Shown in pieces: positions 2,305 to 35,402 of a stretch of DNA of 52,251 nt. A program made the translations under genes and the position numbers. Below the pieces are notes generated by a model. The model ran no database searches. It had not been told where the DNA came from and was given only the letters and a program-made list of their open reading frames with translations. Numbering within the stretch: position 1 is the stretch's first letter; every line of letters begins with the position of its first letter. Source of the DNA: Clostridiales bacterium (lineage in GTDB: Bacteria; Bacillota; Clostridia; Christensenellales; UBA1242); assembly GCA_015069335.1 (NCBI GenBank), contig SVIU01000003.1, positions 1-52,251 of the forward strand, given 5' to 3'.

Positions 2305-2640
2305 TTTTTAGAAAAGCCTCCCCCTACCGATATGGCGAGGAGGTGGCAGCCCTTTGGGGGACCCCGAAAAGCCCCAACATTAGTGGACTTTTGGGGGAGA
2401 GGAAATGCCAGCCATAAAGCAAAAATTTTGCAACTAGCAAAATTGAAGCCAAAAGGCTGTGCATTGACGAGGTAGGGGTGTTTGACTGCTTGAAAATAAA
2501 GGAATTTTTAGAATTTCAATAGGACAAACACCCCTTCAGTCGGCTAATTGCCGACAGCTCCCCCTTAAGGTAGGGGGAGCCTAAGCAGGCAACACTTTGA
2601 CATTTCTAGTAAAATTTTTTATTGTCTTCACTCTGAAAAA
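2305..2640. repeat. Composite palindromic intergenic element (includes copy 2 of the 1-150 repeat)
   Basis: Outer CTCCCCCTACC / GGTAGGGGGAG inverted arms; inner perfect inverted repeat AGGGGTGTTTG / CAAACACCCCT; right part repeats bases 1-150. Confidence 0.7.
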
Positions 2641-2668
2641 TACCGATATTAAAAATCGGTATTTTTTT
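2634..2668. terminator. Terminator-type hairpin downstream of the ABC-F gene
   Basis: aaaaaTACCGATattaaaaATCGGTAttttttt, symmetrical A/T tracts. Confidence 0.6.
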
Positions 2669-2672
2669 GTTT

Positions 2673-2750
2673 TATTATCTATGTTTTTGTTGTGTTTTTA
2701 TTACCTATGTTTTTGTTGTGTTTTTATTATCTATGTTTTTGTTGTGTTTT
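2673..2750. repeat. Tandem repeat, 3 copies of a 26-bp unit
   Basis: (TATTA[T/C]CTATGTTTTTGTTGTGTTTT)x3, ending at the stop codon of the ABC-F gene. Confidence 0.85.
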
Positions 2751-4333
2751 TATGAACTATGCTTCTCATTCATATATTCTTCATAGGTCATCATCTTGCA
2801 ATAAATTTCGGTTGGTGAAACAATGTCAATAACACGGTTTGCAACTGTTTCGATTATTTCTTGGTCATGAGTTGTAAACAACATACATCCACGATAGTTT
2901 ATCATACCTTTGTTTAATGCTGTAATGCTTTCCAAATCTAAATGGTTGGTAGGCTCGTCTAAAATTATAAAGTTGCCACCATTTAACATTGCTTTTGCCA
3001 TCATACAGCGCACTTTTTCACCACCAGATAGCACATTAACTTCTTTTAAAGTCTCTTCGCCAGAGAACAACATTCTGCCAAGCCAGCCACGAATAAAGCT
3101 TTCGGTTTGGTCTTTTGAATATTGCCTTAGCCAGTCCACAATTGACAAATGGCAATCTTCAAAATATGAGTTGTTGTTTTGTGGCAAGTAACCAGTTTTT
3201 ATTGTTTTACCCCAGTTGATTGTTCCGCTGTCGGCAGTATCTAAGCCCATTAAAATGTTGTAAAGCACTGTTGGCGCAAGGCTGTTGTTTGCCATAATTA
3301 CAACCTTGTCATCTTTTGCCATACTAAATGATAAATTTTCAAAATAACCTTTTTTGGTTAAGTTTTTAACCACCAAAATTTCTTTGCCTATTTCTTGTTC
3401 AAAATCAAAGTTGATGTATGGGTATTTTCTTGAAGAAATTTTAAAATCTTCAATTGTTAATTTTTCGAGTTCTTTCTTGCGCGATGTTGCTTGTTTTGCC
3501 TTGCTTGCATTTGCAGAGAAACGCGCAATAAAGTCTTTTAATTCTTTGGCTCTTTGTTCGGCTTTTTTGTTTTGATCTTTTAATTGTTTTGCAATTAATT
3601 GAGATGTTTCATACCAGAAATCGTAGTTTCCTAAAAGCATATTAATTTGGCCATAATCAACATCACAAATATGTGTACAAACTTTGTTTAAAAAGTGACG
3701 ATTGTGCGAAACAATAATAACAGTGTTTTCAAACTCCAACAAAAAGTTTTCTAGCCAACGGCAAGTTTTAAAGTCTAGATTGTTGGTTGGTTCGTCCAAC
3801 ACCAAAATGTCTGGATTGCCGAACAACGCTTGGGCAAGTAGCACCTTAACTTTTGCCTTTGGGTCCATATCCGCCATTAGTGTATCAAAATGCTTTTCTT
3901 CTATGCCAATGTTTTTTAGCAAAGTTTTTGCGTTGCCGTCTGCTTCCCAGCCACCCATATCGGCATATTCTTGCTCTAAATCGGCAGCCAAAATGCCGTC
4001 CTGTTCGCTAAAGTCTGGCTTTGCATAAAGTTCGTCTTTAAGCCTTGCAACTTCCATCAATCTTTCGTAGCCAAGTAGCACTGTTTCCAAAACAGTATGC
4101 TCGTCATAAGCGTTTTGGTTTTGTTTTAAAACGCTCATTCTTTCGCCGGGGGTGATTGTAACCTCGCCTTTGTTTGGCTCAATTTCGCCAGTTAAAATTT
4201 TTAAAAATGTGGATTTGCCCGCACCATTTGCACCAATAATTCCATAACAGTTGCCTTTGGTAAACTTTAAATTAACTTCTTTAAACAGAACTCTGCTACC
4301 AAATTGCAAACTCACATTGCTTACATTAACCAT
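2750..4333 (-). CDS. ABC-F family ATPase (YkpA/YbiT-like)
   Basis: NBD1 Walker A GANGAGKST, Walker B ILVLDEPTNNLD; NBD2 signature LSGGEKVR and IILDEPTNHLD; NBD2 Walker A degenerate (MANNSLAPTVL). Confidence 0.92.
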   Translation of the reverse strand: MVNVSNVSLQFGSRVLFKEVNLKFTKGNCYGIIGANGAGKSTFLKILTGEIEPNKGEVTITPGERMSVLKQNQNAYDEHTVLETVLLGYERLMEVARLKDELYAKPDFSEQDGILAADLEQEYADMGGWEADGNAKTLLKNIGIEEKHFDTLMADMDPKAKVKVLLAQALFGNPDILVLDEPTNNLDFKTCRWLENFLLEFENTVIIVSHNRHFLNKVCTHICDVDYGQINMLLGNYDFWYETSQLIAKQLKDQNKKAEQRAKELKDFIARFSANASKAKQATSRKKELEKLTIEDFKISSRKYPYINFDFEQEIGKEILVVKNLTKKGYFENLSFSMAKDDKVVIMANNSLAPTVLYNILMGLDTADSGTINWGKTIKTGYLPQNNNSYFEDCHLSIVDWLRQYSKDQTESFIRGWLGRMLFSGEETLKEVNVLSGGEKVRCMMAKAMLNGGNFIILDEPTNHLDLESITALNKGMINYRGCMLFTTHDQEIIETVANRVIDIVSPTEIYCKMMTYEEYMNEKHSS

Positions 4334-4420
4334 TTAATTTCTCCTATTTTTCACAAATTCGTAGTATTGTAACACATAAAACTTAATATTTCAAGCAAAG
4401 CATAAATTTTAATCAAAAAA

Positions 4421-4456
4421 CAACCAAGGCTAAAATTTAACCTTGGCTGTTTTTGT
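4421..4456 (-). terminator. Terminator of the giant lipoprotein gene
   Basis: AGCCAAGGTTAAATTTTAGCCTTGGT stem with T-rich flank on the minus strand. Confidence 0.7.
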
Positions 4457-4514: not shown

Positions 4515-7500
4515 TTATTCTACAACTTCTTGCCAGCTTGCTTCAAATACACTTTCCCATTGCAATGAACCAGTTGTCTCATCAAATGTGTATAGTTCGT
4601 TGTCTTTTGACATACCTTCAACCGCAATTATATCTGCAATGTTGTTGTAGTATTCTACACCATTAAAGTCTCTTTCTGCTCCTGAAATTTCTGAGGATTT
4701 ATAATAAACGCTTAAAGCTTTAATATCTGTAGTTTTTCCTAAAATTTGATAAATTGTTGTTTGACTACTAGCCGGCTTGGTTATATCCGCATACGAATAA
4801 CTAATTTCAAAATTTATTGTTTCGTTAAGGCCAATCAAACCGCCAACAACAAACGAACCAATATCTCTAGTGCTATATACGTCAAATTCGGTTGTTGAAT
4901 AACAATATGATAAACTTCCTGTTTTCCCTTTGTGTGTAACATAAGCCACAATGCCACCAATATTGCAAATTGTATCTGCCGCCGTTATTTTTGAGGTATT
5001 TGCAGCTGCAATTATTTCACCTCCAACATTTTCGACAGCAATTCCACCAATATTTGTAGAAGTGTTAACACCAGAACCATATACACTTATATTACCACAA
5101 TTTTTAACACCCTTTATTGTTTTTTCATTGGTCATCACCAATGAAGCAATGTTTGCTGATTGCTCATTATCTCCAAAATATTTTATGTCAATGTTATAAT
5201 AATTATATATATCTCGAAGAGTTCCATAATTATATTCTGAAATAAATGTAAAATTAAGATGTTTGAATTTTGTGCCTATTTTTATTGCCGATTCCGGTTC
5301 GCCAATCATAATGTTTGTTATCTTACCATAATTTTTCGAACTCAATACTGTTATTGTCGCTGTTTCGTCAGTAATGTTAATTGCTTCAGGGCTTAAGCAG
5401 TTATACTCTTCCAAGCCACCCTTCTCATCAGAAACAAATGTAAAGAATAATTTAACATTTTTGATTTCTGCCAGATCACCCAAAACGCCAAATAATGAAA
5501 TATTTAAATCATTTTTTAACCCAGCATCATGGCTGTAGTTTAAGGTTAGCGCGTATTTGTCACCATCATAAATATTGTTAAACGGCACCTCATCCGTTGC
5601 GTGAAGCGTGTTGTCTACTGAATTATGTTCATCAATATTAACTATTAAATTAGATTCTTGTTTAAAGTAATATATATCACTCTTTTTATTATCCTCTAAC
5701 TTGGTAATGTATTCAGTACCGTCTTCTTCTACTTGTACTATTCCATAATAATTATTTTTTAAATCTTTGCTTAAACGATATTTCATATTGTTAAATTGTG
5801 TTTCGTCTGCAACAATATATGGATTTTCTTCCGTACCATTACCAGTTTCAAAGATATCAAACACGCACACTGCTGCTGTTTCATAGCCCGACATAAATGC
5901 AGAGTCATCCGAATTTCTTACAATAACTGCAATTGATATCTCATGTGTTCCAATATGGAATGGTTGATATTGTGTGTCGTCTATGTCCGAATAAACAATG
6001 TATGATGTGGTTATATCTTGTCCAGTTGTCGCATCTTTGTATGTAACTTCGTCTATTATCTTATATTGATAACTATTATTGTCTGAGCTACCAACCCACG
6101 ACCAAGTTAAAGTATATGTTTCTTGGTTATAAACCAAGTCTGATATTCTACTTGGGCTTGAAATTGTTTTTTCTGTCCATGTAGAAGAAATATATCCGGT
6201 TGTGCTAGTGCCATCATTATTTGATTTTGGTATAACTCTAATGCTTATAACAACACCCTCGTCCTCAATTGTTCCCAAATTGAAGTCGTGGTCGGCAATA
6301 AATGTTTTTGAGTCTGTTTGATAAGTTTGTTCTATTCCTTCAAACTTAATTTCATACGTCAAACCAGATCCTCTGTCATCATATTCATCCCAAGAAATTT
6401 CTAAGTTGCCATACGTGCTTTCAGCTTGAGAAAGTTTTACTTTGATATATTCTGGTTTTATTGACTCATATTGACTTATATCTTTCATTTGAGTTGTTTG
6501 GGACTTAACATAGTTTTCAACAACTTGTTCAGCAGCAACAACATAAATGTTTAAAGTAATATTATCCTCAGTAGATATTGCAATATTTTCAAACACAACA
6601 CCCTCGTAGAAGTATTTGCCATCTTTTATATTTTCATCGGTTGGCTCAACTATTATTTGCGAGGTCTGTAGTGTACCATCGATAGTGGTACTAAAATCTA
6701 AAACAAACTTGTAGTTTGCATTAGGAACACCATTGCTATTGCCGAAGTTCCAAGAAATAATACCACCTTTAACTGATATATTTTCAACCGGATCAAATTT
6801 AGTATAATCCACTTCGTTTGTATTTCTGGTCGTGTTGCTTATTAAATAATATGCATCTGTATTTGTTACAGCAGCCTTACCTTCCCATGCTGCTTGAATT
6901 TTTACATTGTAAGTGCCATAGTTCATAAGCTTTGCATGAGAGTTTGTATCAATAAATGTTTCAGTTGTAAAAATTACAATAGGATCTTCTGGCTCACCAT
7001 TTTTTGTTGCACTAAAAGTCAATTTATAATTGCCAGTAATCATTCCTGGTTCCCAGCTGATTACACCGTTTGTAAAGTTGACTTCTGTAATCTCTTCAAC
7101 TCTTGCACCTTGATTTTGTTTGCTCATATTTGAAGTCAAATAAATCTGTGTTGCACTGCCAAGTTGACCAGTTAAAGTTCCAACTGCTGTAAAACAATAA
7201 TAGTATACATCATCGCCATCAACTTGAGTTTCATACTGAATTTGTCCTGCAATATTGTTTGCAACATTTTGTTGTTGAGTTAAATTTTCTGGATTTTTTC
7301 CAACAAAGGCATCATATTGAGTGGCATTTTCCACGTGCGACCAAACATATAATCCATTTATAATACTAATTGAATTTACGGCTGTTGCATCGTTGTCCAC
7401 AGTTGGTAATTTACAAATTTGTCCAAGGTTTGTCTTTGTTCCCGACAAAGTAAAGCTGTCACCCTCAGAAATCGTAAAGCCCTGGCTGCCATGTGCCTGT

Positions 7501-10500
7501 ATAGACAAGTTATACCAAATTGTTTTATTTGCTCTTGTGCTTGTCAATCTTTGACCATCCCAACTCCAATTATCAACGGTTGTTCCAGGCATTTTGATAT
7601 AAGATTCTAAATCTTCAGCACTTCCGCCATCTTCCGTATAGAAAATTTTAAACCCAGAGGCATTTTCTTGGTCAGCCCACTTAATAACACCACGTTCAAC
7701 ATGTGCTTGTACAGGGTCCAAAACTCTAATATTGATAAAACCAGATGGTTTTCCGTTTAACACATTTGAGTTGTTACCCATAACTTGTACAAAAATTTGT
7801 TGAACATCTGAATTTAATTGTCCACTTTCGACAAGGTCTACCAAACTAATACTATTTGGCTTTGCCTCAGCATTTGCATTAACAGTTTTTAAAACTTTTC
7901 TTTTTAACTTGTCGGTTTCTTCATCATGATAAACAGCAACCAATTGATACTCTGTATTGCTAGCAGTTAAATAGTTACTGTTTGTATTAACGTTGTTAAA
8001 GATCAAATTATAACTGCCGTCATTTGAATTATCTACTGCCTTAATTGTTGGAGCTGGCGCAACATAGAATGTGCCAACCGAAATAAAGTCTGAAGAGAAG
8101 TTTGAAACAAGTGCACCTTCGGCGTTTGTTTGTTGCGATAATCCAAGTTGTCTTATTGAAAGAGTATATTCACCGGCAGGAAGTTGCAATCTTGAACTTA
8201 TGTCATGCAAGTTGTAATCTAAAGAATTAAATCCACCTTTTAATGAGTTGTTAAAGTTTGCCAGTTGTTCCCAGTGTTTAGCTTCCATCACTAACTCTTC
8301 AAACGAAGTGGGTTTTACTTCTCCTAAAAAGTTAATAACTGTATCAACATAAGAGTATGTAACAGCCGGATTATTTGTGGTTTTAAATACAATTTCAATC
8401 AATCCATCGCCTGAGCCGTTTTCTCCACCAATGGATCCATCATCATTAAGATCTCGGTTATATAATACCTCAATTCCATTTTTAAGACCATCCATACCAG
8501 AAGTAAAAAATGGGCTCATTATTCCATTGTTATTCTGTATATCACCAAGGGCAGAAATACCTGACAATTCAAAATACAACGAACCGTCTTTAATTTTTGG
8601 CATGCTTAAATTTGGCAATTTTTTAATAGTTATGTCCTGAGGTTCGTCGTTTTCATTTATATCTTTTAAAACAGACATTGAACTTGCCAAAACTGTAACA
8701 TCGGTTGTATTTATTGCCCTCATTGCAAAAGTATACTCAGTTGCAGTTTGCAAAATATCTTTAAGCATAAATGTAGTGTTTGAGTCATTTATGCCAACAG
8801 TTTTATAATAAGATTCATTAACATAACATGTGTATTGATTTGCCCCACTCACTCTATCAAATTTTATCATATTTTCGATTGGTGCTGAAACAGTTGTTGT
8901 TACATAAATATTCACGCTTGGCAATTTTGTAACTGTCAAAGGGATAGAAAAATCTGCAGTTAAATATGCAAGTCTACCAGTTGTCAATGCCGAACTACCC
9001 AATTGTGCAAAACTGATATTATACACCCCCGCTCCCCAATTTTTATCTGGGTCCAAAGTGTAGCCGTGGTTTGTTGAAACAACATTTGTTACACCATTGA
9101 TATTAAACAAATACACATTTTCTGTGTTAGGGTTTTGTTCCCATTTTGCTTTTGTTATTGTGTAATCATATATTGGATTTTCAACCGTTCCACCCATTTG
9201 CTCATGATATAGTTCAATAGCACCTGCATTTTGCAATCTTGCAACTTTAATGTAAGGTGCAGTTTCACCAGCATAGGTTATGTTTGCAAAATCTGAATAT
9301 ACATAACCTTCTTGTGTTGTTTTGCAATAAATCTTTACGCCAAGGTTTTCGTAAGATGCCAAATGGTTGTATAATTCTTGACAATAATAATATGTATTGC
9401 TGTCTTGTGTTGGAAATGCATATGTTTGCAAACTATATTCCCCTAGCATTTCTGCCAAAGAGCCATTTTGTTGATTGATTGTGTAAACTTGCATTGTATA
9501 TGCATGATTTTCCACATCAATATTTTGCTCTGTAAAGGTAAAGAAACCATAAGTTACCGAAAAATCATTTACGGCATTTAATTTGGTTACAGAATATGGT
9601 TCTGAATAATCACCATCAAAAACAATATTTGCCGACACAAATTCAGATCCCACATTGCCCACAGCACGAATTGCAACATTGTGCTGGCCACCATCAAAAC
9701 GCTCGCCTTGCAAGGTTTCACTTGTGTGTGTTGTGTAATCTGCCAAATAGTGAGTGTTGTCAACATTTAGCACATAATTGCTTGCACCTGTTACCGCTTG
9801 CCAATTTATTGAGCCATCGCTTGCCTCAATTTGTGCAGTAACGCCCAATTTTGTTCCAGAAATTGAAACCGGGTTTCCATCCAAATACAAAATTTCGCCA
9901 TGTATTCCACCCAAGCATTGAACAGTTATTGTCCAGTTGTTTGCGAATTTTTGTTTAAGAACTAAATCTGTTATTTCAAAATTAATGTCGCTTGTGTTGT
10001 AATCTTCAACAATTTGTCCATCTATCAACACGTTGGCAATTGCAACGTTATTGTTGTTTTTTGCTGAGAAGTGAATTATTGAATTTTGATCTCTATAAAA
10101 GCCAAGCTCGGTTGCAGAAACAGTTGTTGTTACCGTTTTTTCTACAACATTTGAAGGGATTTGTTTTTGATTTTGATCTACAGCATAAATAGAAAAATCA
10201 ATTGTTTGTTGAACTGTCATATCTACTAAAGAATTATCATCTAAATATCTATATGACTCGCCATATTTAATAACATTTAATACACCGTCTTTTTCTACTG
10301 TGGCTAATTGATTTAAAATTTCTCTTCCGCCAATTTTTGCCAATATCATAAATTTAACATTGTTGCCATAAGTAGAATAATTATCAATTACAATATGTTT
10401 GCTAGTAAATGTAAGTTGTGGCATAGCAATTCTTTCAACTGTTGCCTCTTTTATGCTAGACAAGGTGGTTTGACCATCACCCATAGCAACAAGAGTGAGT

Positions 10501-13500
10501 TTTATTTCGCCCGCAAACAAATTGCTTAGTTGACTTCTAAAGATATCTGTTGATGTAACATCAGACGCAAATGGCGTTGTGGCGGTTGTTGATGTGCCGT
10601 AAGCATAAGTCAAACTATATGATTTGGCATTTGCAACTTGAGCCCAAGTGATGTCACCCAATTGAGACATTGTTAATTCTGCACTTGCAGACAATCTAAC
10701 AACTGAAGTTTCTGCACTATAAGCAGAATTTATATAGCCCGTTGCTCCAATTGCTTGAACAGAAATTTTCCATTCGCCAACATCTTGCAACAAACCACTT
10801 TCCGCATCTAAAGTGTAGGTCGTATTTGCTCCAACCAAGTTGATTGTTTGTCTTACTGCCCCACGATAAACAAATTTGATATTATAGCCTGCAACTTCCG
10901 CGCCTGCAGTGTCAACATTCCAACTGATATCAACATTTGTTTGGGCATTGTCGCCAGCATTAGCTGTTATTGTAACATTGGTTGGTGCGTTGATTATTTT
11001 TACCTCTACATCATTTGAATATGCAGATGACAAATAATTTTCAGCGTCTAGTATAGTGTATTCATTTAACACCTTTTTAATTTTAATAAATTTTTGTCCA
11101 GTCAAACCATTTAAAATTGTTTGATATTCTGGCAATGTAAAATCTATGTTGTTGTTTTGACTTGGTGTAATATTTTTGTGATGTTCTTGAGTGATCTCAC
11201 CATTTTGCATACCAAAGAAACAAACATCATAGTAGTAATTTTCAAAAGGCAAATCTTCTTCATTTGACCAAGTTGCCTTGCTTTCTAATATTGTCAAGTT
11301 GCCATTTGTACTTAATTTTTCCAAACGAGTGAATGTATGGGGTTTTGTTGCACTATTTAAATAGAAGCAATAATTTGACTGAGTGTCGTTAACAGCCAAA
11401 TGCCTCATTGTAACCGTTTGCGCCTCACCAGTGATTGTTGTAAGATCTTGAATTTCGTTGTTGTTGCTTATAACCAACAATTTTTGTGCACCTGTTGGCA
11501 ACTGATAAACAAGAGTTTCGTCAACACCAACTTTAACACCTGTTGGTGATTGCAATCTAGTTATTGTAAATTTGTATATGGTTGTTGCACTTTCTATTTT
11601 TTCGGTTAGTGTCAAAACATAATCTTTTACATCCGCAAACAAAGCATTTGAAAGAGTTGTTGTTGTTACTCCACTTATTGTATTTTGACTTTGGAATAAA
11701 TCGTAAGTTGCGCCGTCTTTTGCAGTCCAATTTATTGTTAAGTTTTCACTTTCCTCATTTTCTGTTACTTCTACATTTAATGCCTCATCAGCCAATTGGA
11801 AGTAAAGTTTGTTGGAAACAGCAGAAATGTCAACTTGTGTGCCAGAAGAAATAAATGTTCCGTTTTCATACTTGCCAGCAATATTGCCATTTAAGTTTTC
11901 CAAAATGTACTCAACGCTTATTTCAACTGGTTGAGAAAGGTTAAACCCTTGTGCTTCAAAATTATATTTTGTCAAATCGTATTCATTTTTTGATGAACTT
12001 ATTTCCACTCCATCTGTTTTTGATGGTTGTCTGAACACAACCTTTTTAACAAAAGTTCCAGTTTTTGAAGTCTCCCAGGTTAGTTTCATTCCACCATTTG
12101 TTAATGTTATTGGGCTTCTAACAACTTTAAATTCAGAAACATCACTATCTAAATAGTAAACGCCATTTGTTATGTCTAGGTTTGAAATATATTGTATTCT
12201 TACAACATCTTCAGCATCACCCGACAATGTGTTTGATTCTTGACCATCAATCCAAATTTTTGTTGTTGCCCATGATGGTGCGTCAACTGCCGAAATAACT
12301 TCTTGGCCATCAAGCTTAAATTTTTGAGGCGCAGATGTTTTTATGACATTTACACTTGAATTATCTGAATTTGAGTATAGACTATTGCTCACGCTTGAAG
12401 CATAAACGTTAAAGACATACGTAAGCTTATTTTCTTCATCTCCTGGTTGATTAAAACATTCGGTTACATCAATGACAACCATGTCAGAAGAAGTGTGAGT
12501 TTTTGTTAAAGTTGGGTAAGCAACATTATTAACCGAAACATAATAAGTGTCAGCGCCATCAACCGGCTCAAAGCTCAACTGATAACCATCTCCCGATTCT
12601 GACCTGCCAAATTGCAAACTTGGCGAGTTTAGTTGTTTGCGGAAGGTTATTGAGGTTTTTGCCCAATCTGATGCACTTAACACTAAACCTTGTGTTGTTG
12701 GTTGTGTGCTTTGAGATGCTTCGGCCTTAACTTTAAAATCATATTCCCCGGCAGCCAATACTCTATATTCTATTTGTTGCTCGATTGTTTGCCCCTGCGT
12801 AACTGTGCCGGTGGTTTTGTTGATTATTTCCCACGAATATACAAATGGAACGGTTAAACCATAATCTGCTGACTGCCACTTAAAAGTGTTATCAGTTTGA
12901 TCAATTTGCAAGTTTGCACAAACGCTTAATTTATGAACGCTAAGCGAAGTTGCGCTGCTGTATGTGCATAGTCTTTCCACCAGCGCGTCAGCACCTGAAG
13001 CAATAATTGAAACAGTGTATGTTCCCACACTGGCAAACAGGTTGGAAACCTTGCCCACAACACCATTTGCAGAAATGCTGTCAAATGTTTGTCTTACCCC
13101 AGTTGGGCCTACAATTTCACAACCAAAATTGGTTGCGTTTTGTAAAGAGATGTTTGAAATAACATATCTTTCATAAGCCTCATCTTCGCCTGAAAGTTGA
13201 ATTTGCTGTATGCTGTGTTGCAAATTTTCAATTTGTCCAAGTTTGATAATTGTATATGCCTCACTCAATTGAGAGTTGATTTCATTACCGTTTGTTGTGC
13301 AAAGTTTAACCGTTAGGCTATATTCGCCAGCAACAATTTCCGTATCCGTAAAATCAATTTGGCAAGTGCCATTGTTCTGAGAAATTTCAGCACTTTCGTT
13401 TTCTAATAATTCGCCATTTAAATAAACTTCATAATTATTTCCGCTATTGGCATTAAACTGATCATGATAGGCCTTGTCTATTTCTAATGTGCCCGATGAT

Positions 13501-14672
13501 TTTATAAACTTAAAAATAGGTGCAGGAAGTTTTGTAACTGTGGCAGTTTCCACAGCACCACTGTTTAAATAATGCTTTGTTGTATCAAATTCCTGATTTT
13601 CGCCATTGTCGCCAAAAGCAATAACTTGCAACTTGTAGCCAACTGGCTCGTCGTATATTTCATCTGACAAATCAAAAACCGTTTGTGTTTGCGACTCCAA
13701 TTTTGAAATTGTTTCGGTTTTTATTAGGGTTTGGCTTGAGCCATCAACTTTGTAAACATTAACATTGTAGCCATAAACTCCGGTTTGTGTGTCAGTCCAA
13801 ACAAATTGACCATTTTTAACCTCCACTTGTGGAGTGCCTAGCCTTGAAAGTGTCAAAACTTGACCTTCTGTGCCAAAAACATTGGTGTCAGATTCTAAAG
13901 CTGAAATTACAGAAATTGAATAATCGGTTGCTTCATTTAGTTCACAAGCAAAAGTTTTTTCTGTAATTTTTTCACTTAACACACCGTCTTTTTTTACATA
14001 AAAATGAGTTATATTATTTTCCGCTTCCCAAGAAAGTGTGTTTGTTTGATCGTTGTATTTTATTGCTGTAGGAGCAGAAAGTTTTGTAAAGGTATATTTT
14101 TCAGAAAGTTCACTTGCGCCAACACCATTTCTGCCAAGGCAAGAAACTTCAACATCAAAAGTGCCAATTTCTGAAATTGCAAAACTGTTTGTATTTACAA
14201 TTTCTTGCTTAAAAGGCTCACCGTTTTTGGTTATGTTTATTTGATATTGAGTTGCAACAATGTTGCTTTCAGTTACTCTATCCCAAACAATATTTCCCTC
14301 AGCGTTGTCATAATGCACATTTGTTGGTGCAGAAAAATTGAAGGATGTTCCCTTGACTTCAATCTCTAAATAGCCATCATAATTTTGAGCAGTGATTATA
14401 ACAGTGCCTTCTTTTGTGGTTGTAACAACAGTTTGCCTTGGAGTAACCACTGCAATGCTATTGTCGCTGCTTTTAAACTGCACATCGGCAATGTTGCAGC
14501 CGGTTAATTCCACGTAGTCGGCAAGATCAATTTCTTGCTCGATTGCCATAAGAATTTTTGACTCTTTAAAAGTTAGGCTGCCTTTTGCACCACCGCCACA
14601 TGCACCAAAAAATAGTGCACTGCAAAATAGTGCGATACCAACCAAAATAAATTTAAAACCTTTGTTTTTCAT
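4515..14672 (-). CDS. Giant (3385 aa) modular lipoprotein with many Ig/FN3-like repeats
   Basis: Lipoprotein signal MKNKGFKFILVGIALFCSALFFGAC; N-terminal Big_2-like segment; repeated 'TKLxxP...ixWxxVxxAxxYxvxin' modules; C-terminal GTEENPYIV and GLUG-like (VGGLIGLNE) segment; uninterrupted frame. Confidence 0.88.
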   Translation of the reverse strand: MKNKGFKFILVGIALFCSALFFGACGGGAKGSLTFKESKILMAIEQEIDLADYVELTGCNIADVQFKSSDNSIAVVTPRQTVVTTTKEGTVIITAQNYDGYLEIEVKGTSFNFSAPTNVHYDNAEGNIVWDRVTESNIVATQYQINITKNGEPFKQEIVNTNSFAISEIGTFDVEVSCLGRNGVGASELSEKYTFTKLSAPTAIKYNDQTNTLSWEAENNITHFYVKKDGVLSEKITEKTFACELNEATDYSISVISALESDTNVFGTEGQVLTLSRLGTPQVEVKNGQFVWTDTQTGVYGYNVNVYKVDGSSQTLIKTETISKLESQTQTVFDLSDEIYDEPVGYKLQVIAFGDNGENQEFDTTKHYLNSGAVETATVTKLPAPIFKFIKSSGTLEIDKAYHDQFNANSGNNYEVYLNGELLENESAEISQNNGTCQIDFTDTEIVAGEYSLTVKLCTTNGNEINSQLSEAYTIIKLGQIENLQHSIQQIQLSGEDEAYERYVISNISLQNATNFGCEIVGPTGVRQTFDSISANGVVGKVSNLFASVGTYTVSIIASGADALVERLCTYSSATSLSVHKLSVCANLQIDQTDNTFKWQSADYGLTVPFVYSWEIINKTTGTVTQGQTIEQQIEYRVLAAGEYDFKVKAEASQSTQPTTQGLVLSASDWAKTSITFRKQLNSPSLQFGRSESGDGYQLSFEPVDGADTYYVSVNNVAYPTLTKTHTSSDMVVIDVTECFNQPGDEENKLTYVFNVYASSVSNSLYSNSDNSSVNVIKTSAPQKFKLDGQEVISAVDAPSWATTKIWIDGQESNTLSGDAEDVVRIQYISNLDITNGVYYLDSDVSEFKVVRSPITLTNGGMKLTWETSKTGTFVKKVVFRQPSKTDGVEISSSKNEYDLTKYNFEAQGFNLSQPVEISVEYILENLNGNIAGKYENGTFISSGTQVDISAVSNKLYFQLADEALNVEVTENEESENLTINWTAKDGATYDLFQSQNTISGVTTTTLSNALFADVKDYVLTLTEKIESATTIYKFTITRLQSPTGVKVGVDETLVYQLPTGAQKLLVISNNNEIQDLTTITGEAQTVTMRHLAVNDTQSNYCFYLNSATKPHTFTRLEKLSTNGNLTILESKATWSNEEDLPFENYYYDVCFFGMQNGEITQEHHKNITPSQNNNIDFTLPEYQTILNGLTGQKFIKIKKVLNEYTILDAENYLSSAYSNDVEVKIINAPTNVTITANAGDNAQTNVDISWNVDTAGAEVAGYNIKFVYRGAVRQTINLVGANTTYTLDAESGLLQDVGEWKISVQAIGATGYINSAYSAETSVVRLSASAELTMSQLGDITWAQVANAKSYSLTYAYGTSTTATTPFASDVTSTDIFRSQLSNLFAGEIKLTLVAMGDGQTTLSSIKEATVERIAMPQLTFTSKHIVIDNYSTYGNNVKFMILAKIGGREILNQLATVEKDGVLNVIKYGESYRYLDDNSLVDMTVQQTIDFSIYAVDQNQKQIPSNVVEKTVTTTVSATELGFYRDQNSIIHFSAKNNNNVAIANVLIDGQIVEDYNTSDINFEITDLVLKQKFANNWTITVQCLGGIHGEILYLDGNPVSISGTKLGVTAQIEASDGSINWQAVTGASNYVLNVDNTHYLADYTTHTSETLQGERFDGGQHNVAIRAVGNVGSEFVSANIVFDGDYSEPYSVTKLNAVNDFSVTYGFFTFTEQNIDVENHAYTMQVYTINQQNGSLAEMLGEYSLQTYAFPTQDSNTYYYCQELYNHLASYENLGVKIYCKTTQEGYVYSDFANITYAGETAPYIKVARLQNAGAIELYHEQMGGTVENPIYDYTITKAKWEQNPNTENVYLFNINGVTNVVSTNHGYTLDPDKNWGAGVYNISFAQLGSSALTTGRLAYLTADFSIPLTVTKLPSVNIYVTTTVSAPIENMIKFDRVSGANQYTCYVNESYYKTVGINDSNTTFMLKDILQTATEYTFAMRAINTTDVTVLASSMSVLKDINENDEPQDITIKKLPNLSMPKIKDGSLYFELSGISALGDIQNNNGIMSPFFTSGMDGLKNGIEVLYNRDLNDDGSIGGENGSGDGLIEIVFKTTNNPAVTYSYVDTVINFLGEVKPTSFEELVMEAKHWEQLANFNNSLKGGFNSLDYNLHDISSRLQLPAGEYTLSIRQLGLSQQTNAEGALVSNFSSDFISVGTFYVAPAPTIKAVDNSNDGSYNLIFNNVNTNSNYLTASNTEYQLVAVYHDEETDKLKRKVLKTVNANAEAKPNSISLVDLVESGQLNSDVQQIFVQVMGNNSNVLNGKPSGFINIRVLDPVQAHVERGVIKWADQENASGFKIFYTEDGGSAEDLESYIKMPGTTVDNWSWDGQRLTSTRANKTIWYNLSIQAHGSQGFTISEGDSFTLSGTKTNLGQICKLPTVDNDATAVNSISIINGLYVWSHVENATQYDAFVGKNPENLTQQQNVANNIAGQIQYETQVDGDDVYYYCFTAVGTLTGQLGSATQIYLTSNMSKQNQGARVEEITEVNFTNGVISWEPGMITGNYKLTFSATKNGEPEDPIVIFTTETFIDTNSHAKLMNYGTYNVKIQAAWEGKAAVTNTDAYYLISNTTRNTNEVDYTKFDPVENISVKGGIISWNFGNSNGVPNANYKFVLDFSTTIDGTLQTSQIIVEPTDENIKDGKYFYEGVVFENIAISTEDNITLNIYVVAAEQVVENYVKSQTTQMKDISQYESIKPEYIKVKLSQAESTYGNLEISWDEYDDRGSGLTYEIKFEGIEQTYQTDSKTFIADHDFNLGTIEDEGVVISIRVIPKSNNDGTSTTGYISSTWTEKTISSPSRISDLVYNQETYTLTWSWVGSSDNNSYQYKIIDEVTYKDATTGQDITTSYIVYSDIDDTQYQPFHIGTHEISIAVIVRNSDDSAFMSGYETAAVCVFDIFETGNGTEENPYIVADETQFNNMKYRLSKDLKNNYYGIVQVEEDGTEYITKLEDNKKSDIYYFKQESNLIVNIDEHNSVDNTLHATDEVPFNNIYDGDKYALTLNYSHDAGLKNDLNISLFGVLGDLAEIKNVKLFFTFVSDEKGGLEEYNCLSPEAINITDETATITVLSSKNYGKITNIMIGEPESAIKIGTKFKHLNFTFISEYNYGTLRDIYNYYNIDIKYFGDNEQSANIASLVMTNEKTIKGVKNCGNISVYGSGVNTSTNIGGIAVENVGGEIIAAANTSKITAADTICNIGGIVAYVTHKGKTGSLSYCYSTTEFDVYSTRDIGSFVVGGLIGLNETINFEISYSYADITKPASSQTTIYQILGKTTDIKALSVYYKSSEISGAERDFNGVEYYNNIADIIAVEGMSKDNELYTFDETTGSLQWESVFEASWQEVVE

Positions 14673-14835
14673 AACTTTCTTCCTTTATGTTTTGTTTTGC
14701 ATATTACTTGCAAATATTTTAACACTTTTTGCAATATTTTATCAAATAAAATACGGCAATATTTTATATTAAATATAAATATTTAAAATTTGCCCACATT
14801 TACAAAATAAATTTTCAATTATTTTTTTAATAAAA

Positions 14836-14911: not shown

Positions 14912-16450
14912 TTAATTTTTTGCTAATTTTTTTTGAAAATAAAGTGCAATATTCTGATCGCGGTCAAGCGGGTCAACAAGGTCTGGATTTTGAGAAATTA
15001 TTGTTTCGGTTGGTATTTTTAAATTTTTTGCAATGTCCCAAAAACTCTCGCCAGCCTTGCCAAAATATATTTCAACAGCGCCATCTCTTTGAGGCAACGC
15101 CCCCAAACTTTCAACCTTGCTTACCATTGCAACTGGTTGTTTGCAACTTACATTTACAAATGCTTTTGCTTTTGCATCAAAATATATTTCTCTGCCACGT
15201 TTGACCATTACGTCAACATCACTCAAGCAAATATACGCCTCTAAAAACGCATTTTCTGATACTTCAGTTTTTTTATTTAACACATAAGGAATTTCAATTT
15301 CCACAGCTTGCAACGAGCCAAGTTCGTCATTTAAATATATAACATTCGCAGAAATTATGCCCTCAACATACATTTTGCCATCAGAGACATAGTTGTTGCT
15401 TATTGACACATTAAGGTTGTTTGCACACAAAAATTTATCAACCCTTGGTTGGCTTTCTAAAAGCGTAACATTCCCCTCGATTTTTTCTTCTATATATTCA
15501 TTGTTGCAAGGTTTGAAGCAATCTTGTTTGTCGTTTAGCACCGATAAAACCTCTTGGGTGGAATATAAGTCTTCGGCAGTCAAAACAATGCTTGTTTCAA
15601 AAACATTAACGCAAGCAACAACTGGAACATTTGTGCCAATTATTGTGTCGCCGTCATCTTTTTCTTCTAGTTCAACAGTTATACCCTCATTTATTACGCT
15701 TGCAAAAATTTCGGCATCAAAGTCCTTGTTTGTGTTTTCAACTTCAATTTCTTGCTTGAAGTTGCGTGAAATGGTTATTGTTTCAAGCTCTGACGGATCT
15801 TGTTTGTTGGCATAAAGCACTTTTGTGTGCATTTCGCCCTCGATTGATACAAAATTTGTGCCAACCGTCCATTCTTTTACAAGCACATCGGTGTTTGTCA
15901 TCAACACCTTTTTGACTCCGTCTTTTACTGTTGCCTCAAGCGTTTCTTCAAACCTTGTGCATGATTGACTTTTTAAGGCAACGACTTCTTTTTCGGCATT
16001 TTTAACACACACACCTTGCGCGCAATCTTTTAAATATGTCATATCTTTATTTGTGTTTAAAACACCACAAAATTCAATTGTTACAACAACCTTAACTTGA
16101 TTTCCAATTTCTTTGTCAAAATCTACGCCAACCACTTTTGCGCACAAATTAATTTTTGTTGCCGGCGTTATGTTTTCGTTGGTTAGTTTATGCACAAAAG
16201 GGCTGACCGATGTTTGATTATTAAGTTCGCCCGTCTCGGTAACATAAACCAAATTTGTAACCACTTTGCCCGACACATTGCACTCTTTGTTTAGTGCCTC
16301 AATGGGCAAATCTAAATCCACCCTGCAATTAGACGATAAAATTTTTAAAACACCATCGCCCTCAATTGATATATTGCTTTCAAGCACCATTTGCTCTGGT
16401 TGCAATTTAACTTTGTTTAGCAATTGAATATTGTCATAAATATTTTCCAT
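14912..16450 (-). CDS. SPOCS (DUF3794) domain protein with C-terminal LysM
   Basis: Repeated SPOCS-like modules, then LysM-like KAGESFWDIAKNLKIPTETIISQNPDLVDPLDRDQNIALYF. Confidence 0.85.
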   Translation of the reverse strand: MENIYDNIQLLNKVKLQPEQMVLESNISIEGDGVLKILSSNCRVDLDLPIEALNKECNVSGKVVTNLVYVTETGELNNQTSVSPFVHKLTNENITPATKINLCAKVVGVDFDKEIGNQVKVVVTIEFCGVLNTNKDMTYLKDCAQGVCVKNAEKEVVALKSQSCTRFEETLEATVKDGVKKVLMTNTDVLVKEWTVGTNFVSIEGEMHTKVLYANKQDPSELETITISRNFKQEIEVENTNKDFDAEIFASVINEGITVELEEKDDGDTIIGTNVPVVACVNVFETSIVLTAEDLYSTQEVLSVLNDKQDCFKPCNNEYIEEKIEGNVTLLESQPRVDKFLCANNLNVSISNNYVSDGKMYVEGIISANVIYLNDELGSLQAVEIEIPYVLNKKTEVSENAFLEAYICLSDVDVMVKRGREIYFDAKAKAFVNVSCKQPVAMVSKVESLGALPQRDGAVEIYFGKAGESFWDIAKNLKIPTETIISQNPDLVDPLDRDQNIALYFQKKLAKN

Positions 16451-16671: not shown

Positions 16672-18975
16672 CTATCTTTCAAACACCTTTGCCACAATAA
16701 CACTCATATCATCTTTTGCCACTTTTCCATTAAGAGTTAAAACCTTATTGACAATTGCCTCCGCCATTTCTTGCGGGTTGCTATTTGACAAGTTGTTTAC
16801 AAAATCTCTTAGTTTATCAAGGCTTTTAAAGCCGTCACTAATGCCGTCGGTAAACAAAACAATGCGGTCGCCACTTGTTAAATACATTTGCTTGTTTTGA
16901 GTTTGAACATTTTGCACGATGCCAAGTGGCAAAGCTTCTAGACTTATTGTGTCAATTGTTTCTTTATGTTTTACAAAACTCTCTGGTGCACCCATTTTCA
17001 CAAAGTCGCCTACGCCTTCACGTGTGTCAATAACACACAAGTCAAGGGCGGAAAAAACATCATCTTTGCCCAAACTTAAAAGTTTGTTAACGCTGGATAA
17101 AATAATATCTTTATCAAAGCCGGCTTTATAAAAATTTTCTATTAAGCCAATGGCTGTACTGCTGACTTCTTCTGCCTTTTTGCCACTACCCATCCCGTCG
17201 CAAAGGGCAAACAAATATTTGCTGTCGCTGATTTTTATTATAGAATAACAGTCGCCACTCGAAACCGAGCCGGTTTTGGTTTTGGTGGCAACTCCAAACA
17301 CGCAATCGTACTTTGGCTCGGATTTTAAGGTTAAAATTTGCCAACCCGCCCTTGCGCTACTCGCCTCATCACAAACCGCCATTTTATGCCCACAAACCTT
17401 GCTTACAACTTTTTCTATGCCAGCCTTTAGACTATCTTCTTTTCTAACCGCCAAGGTTACCGAAAGCACTTGATTATTGTCCTCAAACACCAGTGCGTCA
17501 GAACAAATTATGTTGTTGTAAGTGAGTTCATCCAATATTTTTTTCTCTTTGCCTTTTTCAAAATTTACACCGCTGTTTACTTCCAAACTAAGCGAGCGCA
17601 TAATGTTGGAAACGCCCAAAAGTTGTTCGGCAAGCAAAACCTTGCTTGCGTCAATGTTGTTCATAAGCCCCGCATAACTTTTGTATTGCTCCAAAAGTTG
17701 GTTTATGCTTGTAACCAAAGAATTTAATTTGTCGCACTTACCTGCAAACAAGGTTGGCACATCCAAAAGTGTAACCTTGCCCTTTTCAAAGCCTATATCT
17801 ATCATTTGGCAAAGCTGACTTTCGGTTTCACTTTCAAACATTTTGTAACACTTTGCCCTGTGCGGACACTGACCACAGGAATTAACCTTTATTTCATTTA
17901 AAAGCATTTTTTTAGCACTTGCGTTAACCAAGCCACCGCTTATCATACTTCTAAACACCTTGTTCATCTCAGCAAACACATCACTAAGTTCAACAAGCCT
18001 GCGATAAAGCAATTCGCGGTTTCTGTTTATTACACTAGCTTGCGTTAGCCCAAACAAACTTTCTTGCAATTTGCTACTATAACCATCCAAAATTTTGCTT
18101 GGAATCAAAATAAAACACAAGACTGCAGCAAGCACTGGCAATACGCTCAAAATGTTAAAGGAGTAATAAAAATTTAAATAAAGCCCACTTAAGACTTCGC
18201 TTGCAATAAGCGCAACACAAGAAATATATTTGTTTTTTGTTTTAAAAATGCAACAAGTCAAGCCATAAATTAACATAACTGCCAAATAAGTTGGATTATT
18301 GCCAAACATCAAACTGCCCACACCCATAGCGCTCGCTAACATTATTACGCTGGTTGATTTTGAAACATAGGCATACACCAAAAGGCAAAGTGCACCAAAA
18401 AATTTTATTAAATCCACATTAAAAAATGAGAGAGAAGCCATTCCGCAAAAAATTGACGCAACAAAAATAAACCCGCAAATATGCTCTAGGCTTGTCCTTT
18501 TGCCACCAAGGCCTCTAACGCAAATGCCCTCAAACAACTTAAGCACCATAAACATATACAAAAGGCCTAGCAAAAATTCAGCAAAAACATAATATATGTT
18601 AAAGTTTAAATAATATATTTTAATAAACAGACTGGTTATATTGCTTATGCATGCATAAATCAAAATATGTAAAGGTTTTATTGGTTTTTTTAATTTATAA
18701 TGTATTGCATAAAACAATAAACTAACAATCACCATTGACGCATTGCCCACAAGCAACAAAAGTGAAAAATTGCTCAAAAAACTCGCAAGCAAAAAAATAC
18801 TGCCCAAAACAATAATATTTTGATTGCACCACACAAGTGCAAAAAACACGCCAAACGCAAAAGGAAAAATTGCGTAATTAATTCCCGCTTTAAATAAAAC
18901 AAAAAATAAGCAAAAAAATATTAAATATTTTAAAAAAATACCTAATTTTGTTGCAAAAAACTGTTTATTTTCCAT
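16672..18975 (-). CDS. spoIIE: Stage II sporulation protein E (PP2C phosphatase)
   Basis: N-terminal multi-TM region; Cys-rich CGQCPHRAKCYKMF; PP2C motifs ALCDGMGSGKKAEEVS and IVLFTDGISDGF. Confidence 0.93.
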   Translation of the reverse strand: MENKQFFATKLGIFLKYLIFFCLFFVLFKAGINYAIFPFAFGVFFALVWCNQNIIVLGSIFLLASFLSNFSLLLLVGNASMVIVSLLFYAIHYKLKKPIKPLHILIYACISNITSLFIKIYYLNFNIYYVFAEFLLGLLYMFMVLKLFEGICVRGLGGKRTSLEHICGFIFVASIFCGMASLSFFNVDLIKFFGALCLLVYAYVSKSTSVIMLASAMGVGSLMFGNNPTYLAVMLIYGLTCCIFKTKNKYISCVALIASEVLSGLYLNFYYSFNILSVLPVLAAVLCFILIPSKILDGYSSKLQESLFGLTQASVINRNRELLYRRLVELSDVFAEMNKVFRSMISGGLVNASAKKMLLNEIKVNSCGQCPHRAKCYKMFESETESQLCQMIDIGFEKGKVTLLDVPTLFAGKCDKLNSLVTSINQLLEQYKSYAGLMNNIDASKVLLAEQLLGVSNIMRSLSLEVNSGVNFEKGKEKKILDELTYNNIICSDALVFEDNNQVLSVTLAVRKEDSLKAGIEKVVSKVCGHKMAVCDEASSARAGWQILTLKSEPKYDCVFGVATKTKTGSVSSGDCYSIIKISDSKYLFALCDGMGSGKKAEEVSSTAIGLIENFYKAGFDKDIILSSVNKLLSLGKDDVFSALDLCVIDTREGVGDFVKMGAPESFVKHKETIDTISLEALPLGIVQNVQTQNKQMYLTSGDRIVLFTDGISDGFKSLDKLRDFVNNLSNSNPQEMAEAIVNKVLTLNGKVAKDDMSVIVAKVFER

Positions 18976-19042
18976 ATTTAACCCCATTTTTAATTAATTT
19001 ATTACAAATGGAATTTTACACTATATATTAAAAATAATAAAA

Positions 19043-30124: not shown

Positions 30125-30988
30125 TTAAAATTCAACAAGTTCGTAATTGGCGTTGCCCAAGTTTCTTTTAATTGCATAATCAAGCGTATGTGTGCCGTTG
30201 CGGCTTTCGATTCTTTCAATCAAGTGCTTTTTGCCCTCGTCAGCTGAGGCATACACCAAATCAACACACGCCTTGTCTAGCGCTAATGGGTCTAAGGAAG
30301 CCAAAATTCCAATATCTTCAATTTGTGGATCTTTTGCTTTTGCACAGCAGTCGCAATCAACTGACATATTTTTCATTATGTTAATAAAAACAATTTTTTG
30401 TTTGTAATAATCCAAAATTGTTTCGCTAGCTTCAACCATAGACTCCAAAAATGAATCGTGGTCAGCTGTCCAAATTTTTTCTGGCTCGCCGGCGCCGTGA
30501 ATTACCGCCTTACCAAAAGATGATGCAAGGCCAATAGAAATGTTTTTGATTGCTCCACCAAAGCCGCCCATTGGATGCCCTTTAAAGTGAGAAAGCACAA
30601 GCATTGAGTCATAATTTTGCATATTTTTGCCAACATAATTCACTTTTAAATGTTTGCCATTTTTAACAGGAAGTTCCATTTGTTCTTCTGCGTCCAAAAT
30701 ATCAACTGTAAAGTAGTTGCTCCAACCATGTTTTGCAATGGCTTTTATGTGCTTTTCGGTTGTGTTTCTTTGACCTTCATAAGCAGTGTTACATTCAACA
30801 ACTGTGCCGTTTACACTATTAATAATATCTTTTAAAAACTCTGGCCTTATAAAGTTTTGGTTGCCAACTTCACCCGAGTGAACTTTTACAGCAACCCTGC
30901 CATCAAGTTTTATGCCAAGTTTTTCATATATTTCAATAAGTTTTTGTTGTGTAATTTCTCTTGTAAAAAACACTTTTGATTTGTTCAT
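30125..30988 (-). CDS. DUF362 domain protein
   Basis: GRVAVKVHSGEVGNQNFIRPEFLKDII; LSHFKGHPMGGFGGAIKNISIGLAS; start at MNKSKVFF (30988). Confidence 0.85.
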   Translation of the reverse strand: MNKSKVFFTREITQQKLIEIYEKLGIKLDGRVAVKVHSGEVGNQNFIRPEFLKDIINSVNGTVVECNTAYEGQRNTTEKHIKAIAKHGWSNYFTVDILDAEEQMELPVKNGKHLKVNYVGKNMQNYDSMLVLSHFKGHPMGGFGGAIKNISIGLASSFGKAVIHGAGEPEKIWTADHDSFLESMVEASETILDYYKQKIVFINIMKNMSVDCDCCAKAKDPQIEDIGILASLDPLALDKACVDLVYASADEGKKHLIERIESRNGTHTLDYAIKRNLGNANYELVEF

Positions 30989-31016
30989 ATTTTTTCTCCC
31001 CTTTAGGCAAACTTTA

Positions 31017-31586
31017 TTATATCCAACTAACAGTTTTCTTTTTTGCAAACTTGGTTATTAATTTTTCTACTTCTTGTATGGTTTTTTCTAAATCCAAATT
31101 TTCAATTACAGCATCATAATTTTTTGCATACGACATTTCAAATTCCATTCTAGAAATTCTTAAATCAATGTCGTGATCGCCACGTGCTTTTAACCTTTTT
31201 ATCAATTCTTCTTTTGGTGCGGTTAAAAATATTGAAAGCACAACTGCTCTGTTTTTTAATGCGTTTTTAATGTTTTTTTGTCCAAGCACGCCAATGTCTT
31301 TAATAAAGTGATATTCATTTTTTGCAACTTCATCAAGCGAAGAATTTAACATTCCGTAAAAATTATCGTGAATTTCTTCATGCTCAAAAAGTTCACCGTT
31401 GCATATCTTTTTTTCGAACTCCTCTTTTGACAAATAGATGTATGGATTGTGCATGTCGCCGTCAGTGCTTCTTGGTGGTCTTGTTGTGCAAGTTTGCAAT
31501 AATTTTATATTGTTATGTCTGTTTAAAATTTCTGTAATTACTGTGTTCTTGCCTACGCCAGCTGAACCCGAAACAATGATTAACAT
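31017..31586 (-). CDS. gmk: Guanylate kinase-like protein
   Basis: P-loop IIVSGSAGVGKNTVI; CTTRPPRSTDGDMHNPYIYLSKEEFEKKI. Confidence 0.85.
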   Translation of the reverse strand: MLIIVSGSAGVGKNTVITEILNRHNNIKLLQTCTTRPPRSTDGDMHNPYIYLSKEEFEKKICNGELFEHEEIHDNFYGMLNSSLDEVAKNEYHFIKDIGVLGQKNIKNALKNRAVVLSIFLTAPKEELIKRLKARGDHDIDLRISRMEFEMSYAKNYDAVIENLDLEKTIQEVEKLITKFAKKKTVSWI

Positions 31587-33583: not shown

Positions 33584-34345
33584 TTAAAATTTGAAAAATT
33601 TTATTGCATTTTTCGTTGTTTCTCTTTCAATTTCTTCAACTGGCAGATTTTTAATTTCTGCGATTTTTTGCATGGTGTGTTTTACATACGCTGGCTGGTT
33701 GAGTTTGCCCCTGTATGGCTCTGGTGCAAGATATGGGCAATCGGTTTCCAACATTAACCTGTCCATTGGGCAAAGTTTTACAACATCAATGGCAGCCTTT
33801 GCATTTTTAAAGGTTAAAACCCCACCAATTGAAATATAAAAACCATACGACAAAATTTCTTGCAAAATTTCCAAACTCATACTATAACAATGAATGCAAA
33901 CTCCATTTTGCAATTTGTCAAGGTTTGCTCTTAAAATTTGCATAGTGTCGCCACTTGCATCACGAGTGTGGACAACCACCGGCATTTGAAGTTTATGGGC
34001 AAGGTCAATCTGCTCTTCAAAAGCCAACTTTTGTTGTTCTCTAGTGCAAAATTCATAATGATAATCAAGCCCAATTTCGCCAATGGCAACAACTTTGTTT
34101 TTCTTTGCCAAAACTTCAATTTGCTGTTTAACTTCTTCACACCACTCGCCTGCCTCTTCCGGATGCACGCCAACCGTTGCGTAAACGCAATCATATTTAT
34201 TTGCAAGTCCCACAGCTTTTTTGCTGGTTGAAAAACTAGCACTAGCGCAAACAATTTTTTTAACCCCGTTTGCTAGTGCGTTGTTTAATATCTCATCAAC
34301 ATTTTCAAACTTGTCATCTTGCAAGTGTGCGTGTGTATCTATCAT
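33584..34345 (-). CDS. tatD: TatD family metal-dependent hydrolase
   Basis: MIDTHAHLQDDKF; VGVHPEEA; IGEIGLDYHYE; LMLETDCPYLAPEPYRGKLNQPAYV. Confidence 0.95.
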   Translation of the reverse strand: MIDTHAHLQDDKFENVDEILNNALANGVKKIVCASASFSTSKKAVGLANKYDCVYATVGVHPEEAGEWCEEVKQQIEVLAKKNKVVAIGEIGLDYHYEFCTREQQKLAFEEQIDLAHKLQMPVVVHTRDASGDTMQILRANLDKLQNGVCIHCYSMSLEILQEILSYGFYISIGGVLTFKNAKAAIDVVKLCPMDRLMLETDCPYLAPEPYRGKLNQPAYVKHTMQKIAEIKNLPVEEIERETTKNAIKFFKF

Positions 34346-34409
34346 ATATTTAATATTAAACCATTTTAAACTTATTGTCAAAAGTTTAAACTTTTTATAT
34401 TTTTACATT

Positions 34410-34443
34410 AAAAAAGCTTGCCTATTTCTCGGGCAAACTTTTT
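34410..34443. terminator. Convergent terminator
   Basis: aaaAAGCTTGCCtatttctcGGGCAAACTTttttt. Confidence 0.7.
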
Positions 34444-35024
34444 TGTTTGTTTTCACTTTTTACAACTTCTAAAAATGACACAAATTCTTGAAGGGTTTTT
34501 ATGCATTCGCTATATGCTTTACCAGCTATGTTTTCACCCATATTAAAAACTGTATCTTTAATAATATCGTATGTTATTTGTGGTTTGTCTATTTTTTTAA
34601 TTCTAATAATTAATTTCAACTCTTTACAATTTTCTTCAGTTTTTGCATTAAAAATGCCGCCCCAAATACTACCCACATTACCACCAGTGGTATACGAAAC
34701 ACCATTTTTGTAAACTTCATAATCAAGAAACTCGTTAAATTTAATAATTATTAATTCTGATGATTCGTAGTCAATTAAGGCTATTTTCTTTTTTTTATTG
34801 TCAACAGCCACCATTTGTTTGTATTCATTGCTTTGAATATATGTATGCGAATCATTGATATAAAATATACGAGAAATATTGAATTTTAACTCTTCTAAAT
34901 TTTTCAAAACTTTTTCATTAACAAGCAAGTGAATTTTTTTCTTACTATTTTCCTTATGGGATAATTGTACTCCAAAAATAATAAGAAATAACATAAATAC
35001 TAAAAATATTATAAACCAAAACAT
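34422..35024 (-). CDS. Membrane-anchored uncharacterised protein
   Basis: N-terminal TM FWFIIFLVFMLFLIIFGVQL; soluble domain FNEFLDYEVYKNGVSYTTGGNVGSIWGG...LKLIIRIKKIDKPQITYDII. Confidence 0.65.
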   Translation of the reverse strand: MFWFIIFLVFMLFLIIFGVQLSHKENSKKKIHLLVNEKVLKNLEELKFNISRIFYINDSHTYIQSNEYKQMVAVDNKKKKIALIDYESSELIIIKFNEFLDYEVYKNGVSYTTGGNVGSIWGGIFNAKTEENCKELKLIIRIKKIDKPQITYDIIKDTVFNMGENIAGKAYSECIKTLQEFVSFLEVVKSENKQKSLPEK

Positions 35025-35033
35025 ATTAAACTC

Positions 35034-35393: not shown

Positions 35394-35402
35394 ATAGACA
35401 CC

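Follow-up and report, generated by a model that had tools for sequence, protein, structure and literature searches.

Why would a bacterium with a genome of about 1 Mb keep a single gene of 10 kb, 1% of its DNA, and why must each module of the encoded protein stay put? Giant repeat proteins are usually regarded as adhesins that change fast and vary in repeat number. The giant described here keeps its module number and order across genera at 25–37% identity. Its gene lies in a stretch of 52,251 nucleotides (hereafter the window; positions 1 to 52,251 of contig SVIU01000003.1) from a Clostridiales bacterium of the Christensenellales. On balance, we think that the product is a lipid-anchored extracellular rod that displays a distal domain or holds matrix.

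The giant gene is intact. Its position and its length of 3,385 aa were given exactly in a preliminary description that left the strand unstated; the frame runs on the minus strand from 14672 to 4515, behind a strong ribosome-binding site, AAGGAAG (Table 1). Given the base composition, the log10 P of reading 3,385 codons without a stop is −118, and the other frames over the gene contain open stretches of 99 codons at most. The same full-length frame occurs in four other metagenome-assembled genomes (MAGs) of the genus, among them SIG415, RGIG4566 (from roe deer rectum) and MAG-R039, with one orthologue each of 3,269–3,347 aa at 30–37% identity. Orthologues of 3,244 and 3,165 aa, at ~27% and ~25% identity, are found in two further genera (g19 and g31; genera are numbered throughout). 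These independent full-length copies indicate that the frame is neither chimeric nor interrupted, and they support the earlier claim that it is under selection. The mature protein has a mass of ~371 kDa and a pI of 4.5, with Thr, Ser and Asn abundant and Cys scarce, and no close paralogue is encoded elsewhere in its genome (1.01 Mb in 54 contigs, 97% complete). A strong terminator follows the gene, so the giant is probably transcribed alone; a promoter scan gave 44 hits, not above the 47 expected from shuffled sequence. An anti-phage defence role was discarded after PADLOC returned no match.

Table 1. Features of the giant gene and its neighbours in the window.
Feature	Residues	Positions	Strand	Basis or details
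Giant lipoprotein gene		4515..14672	−	ATG at 14672, stop 4515-4517; orthologues, stop-free probability
Ribosome-binding site AAGGAAG		14679..14685	−	6 nt 5' of ATG; read from sequence
Signal peptide and lipobox	1-25	14598..14672	−	LFFGAC; Cys25; LspA in genome
Big_2-like N-terminal domain	27-110	14343..14594	−	PF02368, 20.1 bits
~26 diverged FN3/Ig-like modules, 80-120 aa each	111-2942	5847..14342	−	hhalign self-comparison, tenascin-R FN3, AF2 and Foldseek
Low-confidence, partly helical insertion inside one module	2035-2165	8178..8570	−	pLDDT mostly <50
C-terminal beta-rich, GLUG/M26-N-type domain	2943-3385	4518..5846	−	Opens GTEENPY; profile, AF2 evidence
Intrinsic terminator 3' of giant, before ABC-F gene		4416..4454	−	−22.2 kcal/mol, z = −5.0
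ABC-F type ATPase, downstream neighbour		2750..4333	−	PF00005 and PF12848
SipL/SPOCS-domain protein, upstream neighbour		14912..16450	−	PF12673, 63.5 bits
SpoIIE homologue, farther upstream		16672..18987	−	PF19732 and PF07228

The N terminus has the features of a bacterial lipoprotein: a signal peptide with a lipobox (ALFFGAC, residues 19–25), a cysteine that is invariant in an alignment of seven sequences, and an LspA encoded in the same genome (103.8 bits). The lipobox, which the preliminary description had already picked out, is kept in nearly all of 47 relatives. Judged from these features, the giant is predicted to be diacylglyceryl-modified and located at the membrane. Sortase anchoring was rejected, as LPxTG is absent from all 47 giants and the 97% complete genome yielded no match to a sortase gene. 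The Big_2-like N-terminal domain proposed earlier is present, but it scores just below the Pfam cut-off of 22.8 bits. In most of the 47 giants, an N-terminal profile finds a match that lies near residue 1.

Between its two ends, the protein is an array of modules. We count about 26, an approximate figure based on profile matches, module boundaries and the pattern of strands rather than on a solved structure. Because Pfam and NCBIfam are nearly silent on the giant, with no Pfam FN3 model matching at E ≤ 0.01 in seven orthologues, we turned to profiles. We aligned the seven orthologues and compared pieces of 120 residues with the whole profile using hhalign. This yielded 78 off-diagonal matches of at least 80% probability from 84 pieces, whereas 42 pieces of a column-shuffled control yielded none and reached a maximum of 0.7%. 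The repeat periodicity whose absence, by the preliminary description, would count against a modular protein is therefore present. Comparison of modules within the single sequence gave a median score of 52 versus 44.5 after shuffling. The modules are thus too diverged for single-sequence detection, and the earlier argument against a recent tandem expansion is right.

Fold comparisons point to FN3. A PDB sequence-profile search with the N-terminal (A2) profile matched the FN3 domain of tenascin-R at 5.3e-5. AF2 models, computed from an alignment of the window protein with three contig relatives, covered residues 1505–2440 (mean pLDDT 64.0) and 2418–3385 (mean pLDDT 52.6). Both are mainly beta; the exceptions are short helices and, near residues 2035–2165, a helical insertion that was predicted poorly and gave no profile self-match in the hhalign comparison. 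Foldseek placed fibronectin FN3 4–7 at the top (1e-6) along with many FN3/Ig chains, and also matched the GhpA base of Aureispira (6.3e-14) and SiiE (1.1e-5); with TM-scores of 0.1–0.3, reflecting unreliably predicted inter-module geometry, these matches support the type of fold only. The modules are accordingly assigned the FN3 fold, in models of low to moderate confidence, and the earlier reading of diverged Ig/FN3-like modules agrees with both the profile self-alignment and FN3 as top fold match.

The last ~440 aa form a beta-rich domain in which short strands repeat with recurrent NYGxI and GGxVG motifs. The GTEENPY/GLUG segment of the preliminary description holds in part: GTEENPY is at residue 2946 and one orthologue matches GLUG at 9e-6, but in the giant itself GLUG (PF07581) scores 11 bits against a cut-off of 20.5. 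The domain shares a GTxxNPYxI start and the NYGxI and GGxVG motifs with GLUG and M26-N-type domains (PF07581, PDB 3n6z), and differs from them in falling below the Pfam cut-off and in having no protease part. It is likely a GLUG-type beta-helix.

The M26 resemblance raises the alternative of a secreted or surface enzyme, either a relative of M26-like IgA proteases or a glycan hydrolase. It draws on a weak match between the GTEENPY stretch and 3n6z, the structure of a putative IgA1 protease (14 bits, E 0.086). However, this match spans 25 residues only, and neither Pfam nor NCBIfam assigned the giant to an enzyme family. The absence of HExxH from all 47 giants largely refutes a protease, and we regard an enzymatic role of either kind as very improbable.

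Further GLUG-type proteins are encoded in the same genome. Three of 600–776 aa match the giant's C-terminal profile (L115, L116 and L117, on contigs C44, C31 and C6). A second giant lipoprotein (L138:3254-12940, on C9) has 3,228 aa, the lipobox MSGC and GLUG-like repeats, and lies directly behind a GLUG-like ORF that spans 1,054 aa or more; it has no Pfam match at E ≤ 1e-4 and resembles the window giant in a weak N-terminal match alone (19.3 bits). Elsewhere in the family, still larger frames of 8,173 to 18,042 aa carry GLUG-type segments (G005:C5 near 30377-31279; G098:C8; G016:C1; G136:C1).

Giants are widespread in the family. A contig scan with a four-sequence C-terminal alignment returned five named loci only, and a profile of the C-terminal third, applied to 118 genomes of the family, revealed giant frames in many more genera, with the N-terminal profile in agreement. 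The resulting 47 giants from 21 genera span 2.1–4.3 kaa; their ends are constant and it is mainly the FN3 arm that varies. Among the matches listed from searches of the order (200 genomes) and the class (245 genomes), none was a full-length relative from beyond the family, and those from outside it were local GLUG, Big_2 or FN3 matches only.

Length is nearly constant within several genera: 3,269–3,385 aa in g1, 3,244–3,310 in g19, 3,564–3,586 in g12, 3,723–3,753 in g58 and 2,059–2,072 in g3, with looser lengths in g26, g2, g65 and g15. Homologues with different module numbers, which the preliminary description had suggested looking for, exist between genera, mainly as differences in arm length; unexpectedly, number and order are close to fixed within most of them.

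Module order was examined by cutting the giant into 26 segments; g12 and g26 were absent from the profile. Three g19 relatives contained 26 of 26 segments in order, with all 25 adjacent steps retained; in g12 and g26, 20–22 segments were found, and 17–20 of 19–21 adjacent steps were in order. Pieces of 110 residues had their best match on the diagonal in 27–30 of 30 cases for the three congeners tested, and close pairs within g19, g12, g26, g58 and g3 gave 29/29, 32/32, 33/34, 33/33, 33/33, 18/18 and 18/18. For distant genera, single-sequence pieces fell on the diagonal less often (13/30 for g31, 10/30 for g12, 6/30 for g3), and the profile segments of g3, g2, g9, g30 and g8 do not correspond one-to-one with the window giant. 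Order is therefore frozen inside genera and across g1, g19, g31, g12 and g26, but this does not extend to the family as a whole. The giant's sequence evolves fast despite this frozen order and the fixed ends. Its identity to the counterparts in genomes G001 and G003 is 37%, compared with 92% for the ABC-F neighbour and 52–53% for SipL; SpoIIE is 67% identical to that of G001. The gene, then, is intact and under selection, and its product is predicted to be a lipoprotein rod whose FN3-type modules lie between constant ends.

Could the rod be an adhesin in the narrow sense, bearing a GLUG-type head that binds host mucin, plant fibre or another microbe and having no matrix role? A stalk with a distal beta-rich domain is the layout of many giant adhesins, and the C-terminal profile match ends at a constant 360–458 aa before the C terminus in untruncated giants with a clear match. 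The further GLUG-type proteins of the genome and the origin of one relative from a deer rectum also fit. Host adhesins, though, often vary in repeat number and have heads that diverge fast, whereas in these giants conservation of the terminal domain is at least equal to that of the stalk and the order of modules is frozen.

The genomic neighbourhood offers another line of evidence. Upstream of the giant in the window are sipL and spoIIE, which suggest an envelope or spore-related structural protein, and the giant directly follows sipL in three genomes (G000, G001 and G003). Against this, the two genes are on separate contigs in G022 and G034 and 6 kb apart in G004, the sipL linkage is confined to the genus, and upstream neighbours are quite different in other genera. 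A sporulation link was therefore rejected as a family trait; we think it highly improbable that the giant has a spore-related role, and the SipL/SPOCS neighbour is probably not part of its system. The presence of SipL and SpoIIE in a 1.0-Mb genome shows that sporulation genes have been kept at least partly despite its small size. Elsewhere in the window, the most AT-rich part (positions 34001-40000; 29–31% GC) holds a 485-aa protein without a Pfam match (37308-38765) and a radical-SAM-like protein (39131-40033).

Downstream of the giant, relatives carry one of three recurrent kinds of gene. The first is a secreted protein of 277–310 aa, forming one sequence cluster and found in all ten genomes of g12, g26 and g58; at these loci (L087-L089, L090-L092, L093-L096), the three proteins tested had no Pfam match. 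The second is a SipW-type signal peptidase, present in all nine genomes of g6, g8, g9, g11, g27, g30 and g59 and on the giant's strand in eight. Six of seven scanned peptidases pass the NCBIfam cut-off for TIGR02228 (51.85) with 63.6–89.7 bits, and one from g6 falls short at 46.2. In g6, g8, g9 and g30, proteins follow whose signal sequences are SipW-type as assigned by look and clustering, and some of these reach TIGR04088. The third kind, at eight of nine loci of g2, g15, g28 and g65, is a second large protein, TM-anchored and with FN3-like modules, of 1.1–2.1 kaa, a range that includes several proteins ending at the edge of the stretch read. None of the three was seen in the stretch read in g3, g16, g13, g57, g1, g19 and g31, and none follows the giant in the window's own genus.

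The SipW association is unlikely to be an accident. In the window's own genome, only two loci match the SipW-type peptidase model, neither of them adjacent to the giant; with so few, nine of nine adjacencies by chance are not credible, even allowing for kinship. These two peptidases (L113:7894-9108 on C20 and L114:173-1744 on C13) comprise 404 and 523 aa, and each carries a long C-terminal tail in which Pro, Ala and Lys or Gln abound. In layout, the SipW-linked giants agree with the window giant; their modules do not match one-to-one, however, and the giants of g11, g27, g30 and g59 give weak matches or none to the end profiles. Their orthology to the window gene is therefore probable but not proved. 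Three of five genus members carry downstream secreted proteins of a common look (GVYAA; L040, L041 and L043). These were considered as relatives of SipW-type substrates, and the profile comparison was negative (10.9%). Membership of the SipW-substrate-like neighbours in the TasA family was likewise dropped, as PDB sequence searches gave no detectable relation. A role in host binding alone would leave the SipW linkage in seven genera unexplained, and we consider the purely adhesive reading possible but doubtful.

A lipid-anchored rod would unite these observations as follows. The signal peptide would direct Sec export and Cys25 would be lipidated, holding the giant on the outer face of the membrane with the Big_2-like domain next to it. 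The ~26 FN3-like modules would form a long flexible rod, perhaps ~100 nm at 3.5–4 nm each, which would be long enough to span the cell wall and would carry the beta-rich GLUG-type domain at its far end. Its job would be structural: to present the distal domain a set distance away from the cell. We infer the surface location, the length of the rod and binding by the distal domain from this architecture. In genera with a SipW-type peptidase, the giant probably acts as a scaffold on the cell side for SipW-secreted matrix proteins, and by analogy it probably anchors or organises such proteins in several relatives. For the window's genus a matrix role is an extrapolation, because no SipW-type gene is adjacent.

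The analogy is with Bacillus subtilis, in which tapA, the gene before sipW-tasA, encodes a fibre-anchoring protein (PMC4551309). In Clostridium perfringens, sipW-bsaA produces a filamentous matrix (PMC7395162). Seven related genera place the giant before a SipW-type peptidase as tapA is placed, four of them with SipW-type substrates, and the parallel is thus one of gene position, not of sequence. TapA has 253 aa and is itself processed by SipW (PMC4551309). Unlike TapA, the giant is a predicted lipoprotein and shows no resemblance to it, and the linkage is missing in the window's genus, which sets the locus apart from a tapA-sipW-tasA operon.

Giant repeat surface proteins as such are a known kind. 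Giant1-5 of Apilactobacillus kunkeei, a Firmicute with a small genome, are extracellular proteins of 3,000–8,000 aa with imperfect-repeat arms and abundant Asn, encoded by five genes that lie together; Giant1-4 have a beta-solenoid at one end, the N-terminal one, and the arms of Giant1-3 are mainly alpha-helical (PMC12863079). The window giant is likewise huge, Asn-rich, built on an imperfect-repeat arm and encoded in a small genome, and differs in its lipobox anchor, FN3 arm, C-terminal beta-rich domain and family-wide occurrence. GhpA and SiiE are giant bacterial surface proteins that, as here, string together Ig/FN3-type beta-sandwiches, a likeness of fold type only (TM 0.1–0.3, model pLDDT 64), and their anchoring and secretion systems differ. 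What is new is a lipoprotein version that is found family-wide, its ends fixed and its module order frozen, with a recurrent SipW-type neighbour in relatives; within the library searched, we found no paper on this combination.

The preliminary description of a modular surface lipoprotein under selection is thus borne out by the orthologues, the profile self-alignment, FN3 as best fold, LspA and the absence of a sortase match in the genome. Its adhesin or matrix-scaffold role is still conjectural, now strengthened by the SipW-type peptidase directly 3' of a homologous giant in seven genera. A bolder version, which we rate as rather unlikely, is that the giant is a family-wide spacer of fixed, genus-set length with a selected module order, holding SipW-type matrix or the distal domain as an unrelated stand-in for TapA. 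If true, it would be an envelope component common to a whole family of Clostridia with very small genomes. The giant also gives this family, whose members named here are metagenome assemblies without exception, a surface marker that can be recognised, and the SipW link offers a testable answer to why these bacteria retain each module.
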